From: a virus | Reading direction: 5' to 3' (one strand) | Virus record (IMG/VR): IMGVR_UViG_3300001450_000039 | Coordinates: 5,319 to 46,940 of that record | DNA length: 41,622 bases | Shown here: one piece after another, positions 343-6,218 of the stretch | Layout: every line of letters starts with the position of its first letter | Position numbering within the stretch: the stretch's first letter is position 1 | Notes under the pieces: model-generated | The model's database searches: none | Told to the model about the DNA's origin: nothing | Seen by the model: the letters and a program-made list of their open reading frames with translations, nothing else | Made by a program: the position numbers and the translations under genes

Positions 343-630
343 ATGGAAGATAAAAAAATTTTTGTTGGATCAGGTATATCAAAGTTTGAAGGAAATCTTG
401 TGTCTTGTAGTATATGTCTTTCTGATTTACCATCAGAACATATATTTGAGTACAATTCTAAGAAATACATAAAACTGAATGTCCAAAAGAAAAAAGAAGT
501 AGATCAGTATGGTAAATCACATTCTGTATCTATTGACACTTGGAAGCCAGAGCCTAAGAAAGAAGACCTTTCAGCAAAACTGGAAAGTATGAAGGTTACT
601 CCAGACAACGATCCAGATTTGCCGTTTTAA
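343..630 (+). CDS. Small protein with SSB-type C-terminal tip (putative ssDNA-binding accessory)
   Basis: A 95-residue protein. What is visible: an N-terminal beta-rich stretch of about 60 residues with alternating hydrophobic and basic positions (IFVGSGISKF, then KYIKLNVQKKKEVDQYGK), a linker with prolines and lysines (residues about 68-80), and an acidic C-terminus, TPDNDPDLPF. Bacterial SSB proteins end in the same kind of acidic tip closing in D-[ILF]-P-F, which docks replication and repair partners; flavobacterial SSBs commonly end DDLPF. The body is much shorter than a canonical SSB (about 110 residues for the OB fold), and I cannot show that it is an OB fold. Its position just before the primase-helicase supports a replication role: either a small phage SSB or a protein that mimics the SSB tip to recruit host factors. 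That role is inferred. Confidence 0.65.
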   Translation: MEDKKIFVGSGISKFEGNLVSCSICLSDLPSEHIFEYNSKKYIKLNVQKKKEVDQYGKSHSVSIDTWKPEPKKEDLSAKLESMKVTPDNDPDLPF

Positions 631-743: not shown

Positions 744-3125
744 ATGCAAATAACAATTTTTAAAGACATAAAAGACACATCACAACCATTTTACAGAAAT
801 GTTATGGTAGTGCTGGAAAGAATAGAGCAAGGGAACTCAAAAGATATAGTAAAAAAAATAAGACTTACAAAAAACAAAGAAGAAAGAAACGATTTAAAAA
901 AACAATTACCAGCAATATGTTTTAGCGGAAACTTTACTAAAAGAAACGACGCCTCTCTAACAGAGCATAGCGGCTTAATTTGTTTAGATTTTGACGGATA
1001 CAAATCAAGTAAAGATTTGCTCCAGGAAAAAGAAAAATTAACTAAAAATAAATTTGTTTTTTCTGTTTTTATATCTCCTAGTGGTAAAGGTTTAAAAGTT
1101 TTAGTTAAAGTTCCAAAAGACGTAGATAACCATAAAAATTATTTCTCATCATTAAACAAATATTTTAATTCACCATACTTTGACACAACCTCAAAAAATG
1201 TTTCTAGAGTTTGTTATGAGTCTTATGATCCTTTAGTTCATATAAATTTGACGTCAAGCCTTTGGGATAAAATAGAGGAAGTGGAGTTTGTTGAATTAAA
1301 CAAGTATAAAGACAAGCCAACAATACCTGTTACAGATGAAAATAAAATTGTAGATATTCTTATGAAGTGGTGGGAGAATAAATATGGGCTGGTAAACGGA
1401 GAGAGAAATAATAATGTTTTTATTTTAGCATCAGCCTTTAATGATTTTGGAGTTCCTAAAAATTTAGCTGAATATGTTATGGGTAATTTTGATTCAAAAG
1501 ATTTTAATATAAACGAAATTAGAAGAACAATAAATTCCGCATACGCACAAGTTCAAAATTTTGGAACTAAGTATTATGAAGATCAAGACAGGGTAAACCT
1601 GGTAAAACAACAACTCAGGCGTGGCGTCTCAAAAAAAGAGATCCGATGTCAATTAGAGGACGAAAAAATTGATATCGGTGACATAGAAAACGTTATAGTA
1701 AGAATAGAGGAAGAGCAAACTAATCATAAGTTTTGGACTAAAAATGAAAAAGGAGTAATAAAAATAGTACATATATTATTTAAGAACTACCTGGAAGACA
1801 ATGGTTTTTATAAGTTTAGCCCAGAGGGTAGTAAAAATTATGTATTCGTTAGAGTAACCAACAATTTAATAGATCATACGTCTGAAAAAGAAATCAAAGA
1901 TTTTGTTTTAAATTATTTACTTACAGTTGATGATCTTTCTGTCTACAATTATTTTGCTGAACAAACTAGATATTTTAGGGAAGAGTTTCTAACATTAATG
2001 GCTTCAATAAATGTTTTTTTTATAGCCGACACTAAAGACGTAGCATACTTGTACTATATGAATTGTGCTGTTAAAATTACTAAAACTGATATTATACTAA
2101 TTGATTATTTAGATTTAGGTGGTTATGTATGGAGAGATCATGTTATAGATAGGACTTTTACTTTATGTAAAGTGGGTAGTTGCGATTATAAAGTTTTTAT
2201 TTCAAATATTTGTGGCGAAGACGATAGCCGAGTAAACTCTATGGAGTCTACCATTGGTTATTTGCTGCATGGTTGGAAAAATTTATCATACTGTCCAGCT
2301 GTTATACTTAATGATGAAATTATATCAGACAATCCTGAGGGTGGTACTGGTAAGGGGTTGTTTATGAACGCATTAGCTAAAATGAAGAAATGTGTAACCA
2401 TAGACGGAAAGAGTTTTACGTTTGAAAGATCATTTGCATATCAATTAGTTTCGGCTGATACACAAATATTGTGTTTTGATGATGTAAAGAAATCTTTTGA
2501 TTTTGAAAGATTATTTAGCATAATAACAGAAGGGATTACGCTTGAGCGTAAAAACAAGGATGCAGTGAAAATTCCTTTTAGTAAATCTCCTAAAGTTTCT
2601 TTAACAACAAATTATGCTTTAAAAGGAAAGGGATCTTCTTTTGAAAGAAGAAAGTGGGATCTTGAATTAGCACATTTTTACACGAAAGACTTTACTCCTT
2701 TGGTAGAGTTTGGAAAACTTATGTTTGGAGAGTGGGACGATACTGAATGGTGTCAGTTTGATAATTATATGATGACTAACTTGCAGTTATATCTTAACAA
2801 TGGATTAATTAAGGGTAATTTTGTAAACAAAAAAATAAAAGATTTGTCTAGCGAGACTTGTCATGAATTTATAGAGTGGTGCGGTTTAGTAGGAGACTCA
2901 CAGATAAATGAAAAAATTAAACCAAATAGCAGAATGTATAAGCAAGACTTGTATGATGAGTTTATTAGCGAATATCCTGATTTCGCTCCTAAATCAAAGT
3001 TTACCGTCCCCCGCAGAAGGTTTTATAATTGGATAAAGGCTTACTCGGCTTACGAATACAATAGTTTACCCGAAGAGGGTAGAGATTTAGGCGGTAGATA
3101 TTTTATGTTTAAAACTAATGATTAA
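744..3125 (+). CDS. Fused primase-like (VirE-N/BT4734-type) and SF3-type helicase protein
   Basis: A 793-residue multidomain replication protein. Residues about 1-165 resemble the VirE N-terminal/BT4734-like domain: LDFDG (81-85) gives an hhDhD acidic motif, SPSGKGLKVL (111-120) a Gly/Lys-rich motif, and SRVCYESYDP (154-163) a third motif. All three are reminiscent of the archaeo-eukaryotic primase-polymerase fold. Residues about 200-275 look like a helical primase C-terminal linker. The helicase part has Walker A GGTGKG (533-538), Walker B ILCFDD (575-580), a sensor TTN (621-623) and a likely arginine finger in FERRK (633-637), as in phage/plasmid D5-like or DUF5906 helicases. It probably primes and unwinds the phage origin. 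It overlaps the next helicase gene by 8 bases. The helicase assignment is strong; the primase activity is inferred from motifs. Confidence 0.85.
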   Translation: MQITIFKDIKDTSQPFYRNVMVVLERIEQGNSKDIVKKIRLTKNKEERNDLKKQLPAICFSGNFTKRNDASLTEHSGLICLDFDGYKSSKDLLQEKEKLTKNKFVFSVFISPSGKGLKVLVKVPKDVDNHKNYFSSLNKYFNSPYFDTTSKNVSRVCYESYDPLVHINLTSSLWDKIEEVEFVELNKYKDKPTIPVTDENKIVDILMKWWENKYGLVNGERNNNVFILASAFNDFGVPKNLAEYVMGNFDSKDFNINEIRRTINSAYAQVQNFGTKYYEDQDRVNLVKQQLRRGVSKKEIRCQLEDEKIDIGDIENVIVRIEEEQTNHKFWTKNEKGVIKIVHILFKNYLEDNGFYKFSPEGSKNYVFVRVTNNLIDHTSEKEIKDFVLNYLLTVDDLSVYNYFAEQTRYFREEFLTLMASINVFFIADTKDVAYLYYMNCAVKITKTDIILIDYLDLGGYVWRDHVIDRTFTLCKVGSCDYKVFISNICGEDDSRVNSMESTIGYLLHGWKNLSYCPAVILNDEIISDNPEGGTGKGLFMNALAKMKKCVTIDGKSFTFERSFAYQLVSADTQILCFDDVKKSFDFERLFSIITEGITLERKNKDAVKIPFSKSPKVSLTTNYALKGKGSSFERRKWDLELAHFYTKDFTPLVEFGKLMFGEWDDTEWCQFDNYMMTNLQLYLNNGLIKGNFVNKKIKDLSSETCHEFIEWCGLVGDSQINEKIKPNSRMYKQDLYDEFISEYPDFAPKSKFTVPRRRFYNWIKAYSAYEYNSLPEEGRDLGGRYFMFKTND

Positions 3126-4591: not shown

Positions 4592-4895
4592 GGGTTATGA
4601 TGTGGAAGATTATTTCATGGATAACCTTTCTGAATTAGATCTTTACACCGCTCTTAAAATTGCAACTTTTATAGAAAAAAATTTACAAAGCATACCAGTT
4701 ACAAGGCTAGGATCTGTAGTTTTGGGAGGTTGCGTTGTTCATACCGTTGGAGATCCTATAACTTTTGTGATAGAAATGGTTCGTAAAAAAAACTGCTACA
4801 CTACCTTAACAGACATAGCTTTAATATCTATGGATGAGTATTTAGATTTGATGCTGTTAAATTGTTATATAAAAAATTCTGAAAAATTAGGATAA
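4554..4895 (+). CDS. Hypothetical protein (up to 113 aa)
   Basis: A reading frame that overlaps the VRR-NUC gene by 38 bases if the first ATG (4554) is used. An ATG two codons later (4560) or one at 4617, outside the overlap, are alternatives, and no Shine-Dalgarno-like sequence decides between them. The protein is compact, with helix-like segments (SELDLYTALKIATFIEKNL), a central Val/Gly-rich stretch (RLGSVVLGGCVVHTV) and a C-terminal helical part rich in Leu and Met. No motif is recognised. Its place in the replication operon suggests an early function. I am confident it is coding, less so about its start. Confidence 0.6.
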   Translation: MIMDVRQKYIEAKGYDVEDYFMDNLSELDLYTALKIATFIEKNLQSIPVTRLGSVVLGGCVVHTVGDPITFVIEMVRKKNCYTTLTDIALISMDEYLDLMLLNCYIKNSEKLG

Positions 4896-5125: not shown

Positions 5126-6218
5126 CAAAGAGTACGGCAAAAGATTAAGACTTTCTCCCGAAGAAGTTGATTATATATTACAAAAAAGAGCTACTAATTT
5201 AGATAATATAAATAATAATTCAGCTTTAGATGTGCACTGTGAGGAGCGAGGTATAGATAAAAAAGATATAGTTAGTGTTAAACACTGGCAAAGCGGTAGC
5301 GGAGACTATCGGTTCTCAATAGTTACCAAAGAAAACTTAGGGTTAGACGAAGAGCAAATATTTGGTAAAGTAAATGATTTTATTTCAAATTACTCTCCTG
5401 ATTACATTCCTTTAAAAACTACAAGAGAAAGAAAAAACGCTCATCTTTTAGTAATAAATCCAGCTGATATACACATTGGTAAATATGCTGACGAAAAAGA
5501 AACTAACCAGGATTACAATAATGATATTGCTGTAGCAAGGGTTATAGAGGGCGTTAAAGGACTTATAGATAAGGCTAAAGGGTTTGATATAGATAGGGTT
5601 TTATTTTGTATAGGAAACGATGTACTCCATATTGACAACGTATACTCAACTACCACTAAAGGGACATATCAAGACACTGACGGCAAATGGTGGCAACACT
5701 ACGAAATAGCACTAATGTTATACGTTAAATGTGTAGAAATGCTAAGAAAGATTGCTCCAGTAGACGTTCTTCATAGCATGAGTAATCATGACTACCAGTC
5801 TGGATACCACCTGGCTCATACTTTAAAAAGTTGGTTTAGAAAAGCGGCTGATGTTACTTTTGATATTAGCGTGGCTCATCGTAAGTATTACAAGTATGGA
5901 ACGAATTTGCTAGGCCTGGAGCATGGAGACGGGGCAAAGATGGTAAATTTACCCTTGTTGATGGCACAAGAGAAACCATTACTCTGGTCAGAAACTACTC
6001 ATAGGTATTGGTACTTACATCATATTCATCACAAAGTAAAACACAAATGGTTAGACGCTAAAGATTATATTGGCGTTACTGTTGAATACATGAGAAGTCC
6101 GTCGTCTGCTGATAGTTGGCATTCAAGAAAAGGCTTTACTGGAGCACCATTAGCCTGTGAAGGATTTATTCATAGTAGACTAACAGGTCAGGTAGCTCGT
6201 TTAACGCATTACTTTTGA
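5115..6218 (+). CDS. Calcineurin-like metallophosphoesterase
   Basis: A 367-residue protein with the metal-binding signature of the calcineurin-like phosphoesterase superfamily in the expected order: DIH (118-120), GND (167-169), SNHD (223-226, with Ser in place of the usual Gly), EHGD (269-272) and HHIHH (302-306). An N-terminal region of about 110 residues precedes the catalytic fold and begins with a possible small helical DNA-binding segment (LRLSPEEVDYILQKRA). Phage members of this superfamily are often nucleases of the SbcD/Mre11 type or phosphodiesterases, so DNA processing is likely given the helicase and nuclease neighbours. The exact substrate cannot be read from sequence. It overlaps the upstream gene by 11 bases, and its TGA overlaps a possible TTG start downstream. 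Confidence 0.85.
   Translation: MKSNKEYGKRLRLSPEEVDYILQKRATNLDNINNNSALDVHCEERGIDKKDIVSVKHWQSGSGDYRFSIVTKENLGLDEEQIFGKVNDFISNYSPDYIPLKTTRERKNAHLLVINPADIHIGKYADEKETNQDYNNDIAVARVIEGVKGLIDKAKGFDIDRVLFCIGNDVLHIDNVYSTTTKGTYQDTDGKWWQHYEIALMLYVKCVEMLRKIAPVDVLHSMSNHDYQSGYHLAHTLKSWFRKAADVTFDISVAHRKYYKYGTNLLGLEHGDGAKMVNLPLLMAQEKPLLWSETTHRYWYLHHIHHKVKHKWLDAKDYIGVTVEYMRSPSSADSWHSRKGFTGAPLACEGFIHSRLTGQVARLTHYF

Follow-up and report, generated by a model that had tools for sequence, protein, structure and literature searches.

The question raised by this locus is what a very small phage protein does when it lies beside a primase-helicase gene and ends in a peptide that resembles the C-terminus of single-stranded DNA- (ssDNA-) binding proteins (SSBs). 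The window, that is, the whole stretch of DNA analysed, comprises 41,622 nucleotides (positions 5,319 to 46,940) of the IMG/VR virus record IMGVR_UViG_3300001450_000039, a sequence of 58,324 bases from a marine phage.

Gene and Protein Architecture

The gene occupies positions 343-630 of the plus strand, begins with ATG, and encodes 95 amino acids ending in TPDNDPDLPF. It had been read as a gene from its letters alone, and this is confirmed by relatives encoded on 49 viral contigs (tblastn), which contribute to a family of 204 proteins after filtering. Three parts can be distinguished. Residues 1-73 (343-561, plus strand) correspond to a conserved, predicted beta-rich domain, which includes most of the 32 residues invariant across 23 proteins of the target's own branch (clade 1) and the strands of an AF2 model. 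Residues 74-85 (562-597, plus strand) are a linker of low identity, whose counterpart in the 67 clade-1 proteins, from the DTWKPE stretch to the last four residues, varies from 9 to 21 residues. Residues 86-95 (598-627, plus strand) are the acidic SSB-type tip, TPDNDPDLPF.

The body ahead of the linker, estimated at the outset as about 70 residues, counts approximately 73 and is indeed shorter than the usual OB fold, as represented by the 104 profile positions of the SSB family PF00436. For some small OB proteins, about 70 residues suffice. The domain is not strongly basic: the mean net charge in clade 1, with the last 20 residues left out, is -0.3, and residues 1-73 of the window protein carry a net charge of +3.

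Branches of the Family

Relatives were collected by tblastn-confirmed scans of viral contigs in which the target, an alignment, and distant relatives served as queries. Three profiles run over all fetched loci matched 295 ORFs, and the dropping of minus-strand, open-ended, duplicate, and Met-less rows and of those outside 65-125 aa left 204 unique proteins. These fall into clade 1 (98 ORFs, 67 unique proteins after filtering), clade 2 (118 and 79), and family E (79 and 58). The clade-1 profile matches 58 of the 118 clade-2 ORFs and the clade-2 profile 88 of the 98 clade-1 ORFs, cross-matches which are partly owed to the common DTWKPE stretch and to the tip. A clean family-E profile, made from 61 proteins with no clade-1 seeds, finds the target among 21,564 ORFs at E 6.7e-6 (27.0 bits), a value used here in preference to the stronger E 1.3e-15 of a profile containing two clade-1 seeds. 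At E <= 1e-3, 94/98 ORFs of clade 1 are matched by the clean profile, and of the 118 in clade 2 not one.

Family E, to which phrog_24909 belongs, is found in Elemovirus, Vibrio, Polaribacter, and Riemerella phages. It resembles the target in its homologous core, in its tip, and in its place beside annealing proteins, but differs in that the first strand of clade 1 appears to sit C-terminal in its domain; its function is unannotated. By direct hmmscan the target reaches phrog_24909 at E 0.18 only. Relatives of the target are labelled "hypothetical protein" in all 60 listed of 105 matching records, and "hypothetical" is also the label in the 60 listed of 256 rows for a Vibrio relative, a few of which share the match with a neighbouring gene. 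A literature search over titles and abstract openings returned no paper naming the family, which is not proof of absence. A genome scan with family E gave only two contigs (L303 and L304), both from one MAG labelled Rickettsiales; these are probably phage contigs binned into it.

The position of the first strand suggests a rearrangement of the domain. The N-terminal strand KIYVGSG.SKF is missing from family E, in which KIYLGNGKVVW follows the core (e.g., L106:2336-2632). When the family-E and clade-1 profiles were compared at all positions, tips excluded, the best off-diagonal matches lay on a single diagonal that sets the family-E KIYLGNGK on the clade-1 N-terminal KIYVGSG, with a score of 19.0 versus 19.4 for the homologous core at 8 columns. 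Whole-profile column shuffles were as good in 1/300 cases at 8 columns, 1/300 at 10, and 11/300 at 12. By this comparison the strand order of family E appears to differ from that of clade 1, and there is moderate, although not conclusive, support for a domain circularly permuted between the two. The permuted strand is not seen with the clade-2 profile.

Conservation of the C-Terminal Tip

The 67 unique clade-1 proteins all end in D[LM]PF (66 DLPF and 1 DMPF), and these four residues are encoded by 30 distinct nucleotide strings. In clade 1 the last 4 residues have a mean pairwise identity of 0.99, as against 0.19 for residues -12 to -5. Among 7,424 unique unrelated ORF ends from the same loci, 23 are [LIVMF]PF and 3 are D[LIVMF]PF. 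Because the tip is invariant under many spellings, follows a variable linker, and is rare in unrelated ORFs, the free C-terminal peptide is under selection in clade 1, as SSB tails are. The resemblance to an SSB tip, proposed in the initial annotation from a single sequence, therefore goes far beyond chance.

In clade 2, 77/79 unique proteins end in -P[FW]; two (L122 and L131) are without any such end, and in L116 and L117 only -EEQPF is left. Ends of the -P[FW] or LPFN type close 50 of the 58 family-E proteins, the other eight having, for example, IDLF, DLIF, or DIDW. The initial annotation had named relatives with the body and without the tip as evidence that would count against it: none occurs among the 67 unique members of clade 1, and two of the 79 in clade 2 are of this kind.

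The E. coli SSB has been reported to end in DDDIPF (PMC5928155), and similar IPF or VPF tips are borne by relatives from Vibrio and Marinomonas phages. Some gammaproteobacterial relatives combine PQ-rich linkers with the tips DDFDDVPF or MDFDDDIPF. In two Vibrio phage relatives the tip is internal: MDFDDDIPF in L300:4986-5372 is followed by 15 more residues ending in HCI, and EEIPF in L299:5001-5363 by 13 ending in HCM. A NinG-type protein (L138:6640-7044; PF05766, 5.9e-30) likewise ends in -NPDLPF.

In a few loci a similar end is found on the neighbouring primase-helicase. Those at L116:5797-8185, L117:6286-8674, and L122:6294-8679 end in -NDDPPF or -NDDVPF, and the small protein adjoining each has a decayed tip. 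When each distinct pair of small-protein and primase ends is counted once, an acidic -PF primase end accompanies 0/79 intact-tip pairs and 2/3 decayed-tip pairs of clades 1 and 2. L116 and L117 constitute one distinct pair, and both look like one lineage with L122; since the two decayed-tip pairs are related, the apparent relocation of the tip to the primase may be a single event. In family E an intact tip occurs together with a -PF primase end in 2/3 pairs, and tip exchange is therefore no rule.

Gene Neighbourhood

The order of genes upstream of the target is a DnaA C-terminal-domain protein, a phrog_11717 protein, an exonuclease VIII-type nuclease, and a 57-aa ORF. Downstream follow a terminator-like hairpin and the genes of a primase-helicase, a helicase, and a VRR nuclease, with a gene of DNA repair exonuclease type at a greater distance. 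The exonuclease gene (PF12684 (DUF3799), 1.7e-14; phrog_412, 5.6e-26) begins ahead of the window, at base 4746 of the record, and its 3′ end covers positions 1-180 of the plus strand; the 57-aa ORF, recognised as a reading frame, spans 167-340 on the same strand. The primase-helicase (744-3125, plus strand; BT4734-like_N 5.9e-20, PriCT_1, and DUF5906) starts 113 nt after the end of the target gene, and the adjacency claimed for the two genes thus stands.

The hairpin occupies positions 635-727 of the plus strand (arms 635-646 and 716-727; fold -29.6 kcal/mol, z -2.36). About 70 nt with small hairpins of their own separate its arms, and many relatives have a plain terminator. Terminator-like hairpins are present 3′ of the gene in 52/66 clade-1 stretches and upstream of it in 0/67, with a shuffle mean of 0.1, and for this reason the target gene is regarded as the last gene of the recombination operon.

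Within clade 1, whose contigs in some cases stop short of one of these neighbours, an exonuclease is found no more than 1.5 kb upstream in 66/67 unique members, a putative annealase-slot protein no more than 3 kb upstream in 58/67, and a primase no more than 2 kb downstream in 62/67. The same queries retrieve an exonuclease, an annealase, and a primase in 23, 26, and 23 of the 79 clade-2 members and in 11, 1, and 2 of the 58 family-E members, respectively, as would be expected if the nucleases and annealing proteins of these branches belong to other families. Of 13 inspected records of annotated phages, 10 encode an annealing protein (ERF, SSAP, Sak, or Rad52) within approximately 2.6 kb of the relative, and in the remaining three none is annotated nearby; the relatives themselves carry the label "hypothetical" in these records. 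In MW202828 a clade-2 relative holds the same slot, after SSAP_Sak and an exonuclease. Family-E relatives adjoin ERF, SSAP, or Rad52 genes, and one record bears the note cog:COG0629, which we take to be the Ssb group.

In the phage of the window the annealase slot is held by the phrog_11717 protein, in a place taken by SSAP_Sak in a relative; profile searches with it returned only phrog families of no known function and no Pfam family. The phrog_11717 protein in the annealase slot at L051:4213-4743 contains SAWGRALGNFG and could be an unrecognised annealing protein.

Similarity to Known Proteins and Predicted Structure

Searched directly by profile in Pfam, PHROGs, NCBIfam, and PDB, the window protein had no significant match and none to an SSB family. 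PF00436 produced no row at E <= 1 for it in the Pfam profile search and does not occur in the tables of family matches for the scanned members; in addition, no PF00436 SSB rises above the cut-off in the 9 phage records searched, the phage's own record included. The family phrog_378, "single strand DNA binding protein," does not match the window protein; it weakly matches the relatives L043 (E 0.0028) and L031 (0.17), in both cases only along the C-terminal half and the tip. A similarity to phrog_21084, "recombinase," was obtained at E 0.01 and 0.0037, and one to ribosomal L22e (E 0.048 and 0.088) was judged to be due to chance.

The AF2 model built with 73 sequences is beta-rich, with strands at residues 5-14, 22-27, 35-37, 40-42, 45-49, and 60-65, a mean pLDDT of 65, and a pTM of 0.42; AlphaFold with 23 close relatives gave a pLDDT of 49. 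We consider the better of these models too weak for claims about the fold. Its comparison with PDB by Foldseek returned no match at E <= 0.001, and its best VIA score was Z 2.3, with no convincing PDB relative. The top BFVD matches are unnamed or uncharacterised phage proteins.

Proposed Function and Alternative Explanations

The gene probably encodes a small phage SSB-like protein, whose beta domain would bind ssDNA and whose SSB-type tip would dock the annealing protein and/or host SSB-binding enzymes; by analogy, its most likely task is to coat ssDNA during phage genome copying and recombination. This reading rests on the invariant tip behind a variable linker, on the nearly constant clade-1 order of annealase slot, exonuclease, gene, terminator, and primase, and on the ERF, Sak, or Rad52 annealing proteins that adjoin the relatives. 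It is further favoured by the lack of a PF00436 SSB above cut-off in the 9 records, by the PQ-rich linkers and E. coli-like tips of some gammaproteobacterial relatives, by the weak phrog_378 match of one relative, and by the precedents of phages HK620 and 80alpha/phi11. Against it are counted the missing SSB-family profile match, the modest AlphaFold confidence, the absence of a fold match in PDB, a domain that is not strongly basic, the three of 13 phages with no annotated annealing protein, and an annealase-slot protein in its own phage that matches only function-unknown phrogs and no Pfam family. The initial interpretation is partly supported: its suggestion of a minimal phage SSB is favoured by the conserved domain with its tip, the operon place, the annealase neighbours of the relatives, and the lack of a detectable canonical SSB.

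In the mechanism that we propose, the exonuclease of the operon would produce ssDNA. The domain of about 73 residues would bind this ssDNA and that at the primase-helicase fork, the flexible tail with its acidic tip would bring in the phage annealing protein and/or host enzymes, and the primase-helicase would act on the resulting product. That the protein binds ssDNA, which partners its tip has, and in what oligomeric state it acts are matters that we infer.

The nearest precedent is phage HK620, whose SSB is reported to require its last six residues for binding Sak4 and for most of the Sak4 stimulation (PMC5928155). Encoded beside the annealing protein, this SSB coats ssDNA and recruits its partner through an acidic C-terminal -PF tip, features that the target is proposed to share; it is a proven bona fide SSB (PMC5928155), whereas the target is a predicted one with no detectable PF00436 similarity. 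In phages 80alpha and phi11, sak and ssb are reported to cooperate in replication (PMC5499656). Bacterial SSBs of PF00436 have the same succession of folded domain, flexible linker, and acidic tip ending in PF, but they cover 104 profile positions rather than a domain of about 73 residues, and no profile match links the two. Another small protein, MP, the SSB of A-family polymerase primases in mobile elements, is likewise described as small, sequence-elusive, and placed beside replication genes; the likeness is one of description, and MP differs in its predicted OB fold and in its partner polymerase (PMC10061031). The target would accordingly be a protein that functions like known phage SSBs, yet by profile it is not a member of PF00436.

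A different role, which we consider unlikely, is that of an adaptor whose domain binds the annealase, exonuclease, or primase instead of ssDNA and lends the complex an SSB-type tip for recruiting host enzymes. The non-basic domain and the failure of structure searches to find a known ssDNA-binding fold agree with it, as does the coincidence in L116, L117, and L122 of a decayed tip with an acidic -PF primase end, as though the tip worked for the complex as a whole. Such an adaptor would, however, leave the phage without an ssDNA coat, whereas the annealase modules described for other phages carry an SSB (PMC5928155, PMC5499656), and some family-E relatives show a full SSB-like architecture with PQ-rich linkers.

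The initial annotation had also suggested a decoy, capturing host SSB-binding enzymes from the host SSB and so blocking host repair or defence nucleases. For a gene this small the tip alone could suffice, but a decoy needs no conserved body, and most of the 32 invariant residues lie there; together with the fixed position of the gene in the recombination-replication cassette of the phage (exonuclease upstream in 66/67), this makes a pure decoy very improbable. Hydrophobic C-termini can act as protease signals, and the tip might then be a degradation signal, or else a chance C-terminus, bearing no relation to SSB partners, a view that the constancy of D[LM]PF (67/67) under 30 nucleotide spellings and the E. 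coli-like IPF or VPF tips of Vibrio and Marinomonas phage relatives render the least credible of all.

If the SSB-like reading is extended to the whole family, its branches could together make up a superfamily of minimal phage SSBs that escapes the known SSB profiles and may have a small beta fold not yet described. Its domain would be circularly permuted between branches, and its tip, always at a free C-terminus, would be a portable element, able to pass to the adjacent primase once it is lost from the SSB. This wider proposal is tentative, and we hold it to be possible rather than probable.

Significance

Phage SSBs have been described as aiding annealing proteins (PMC5928155) and as able to trigger the host defences Hna and AbpAB (PMC13381803, PMC10732053). 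For these reasons, the recognition of SSBs that have escaped annotation matters both for Bacteroidota recombineering tools and for defence studies. The family of the target is widespread among phages, in three branches, and unannotated; if the reading given here is true, an SSB-like function would be assigned to proteins so far recorded in phages as "hypothetical protein."
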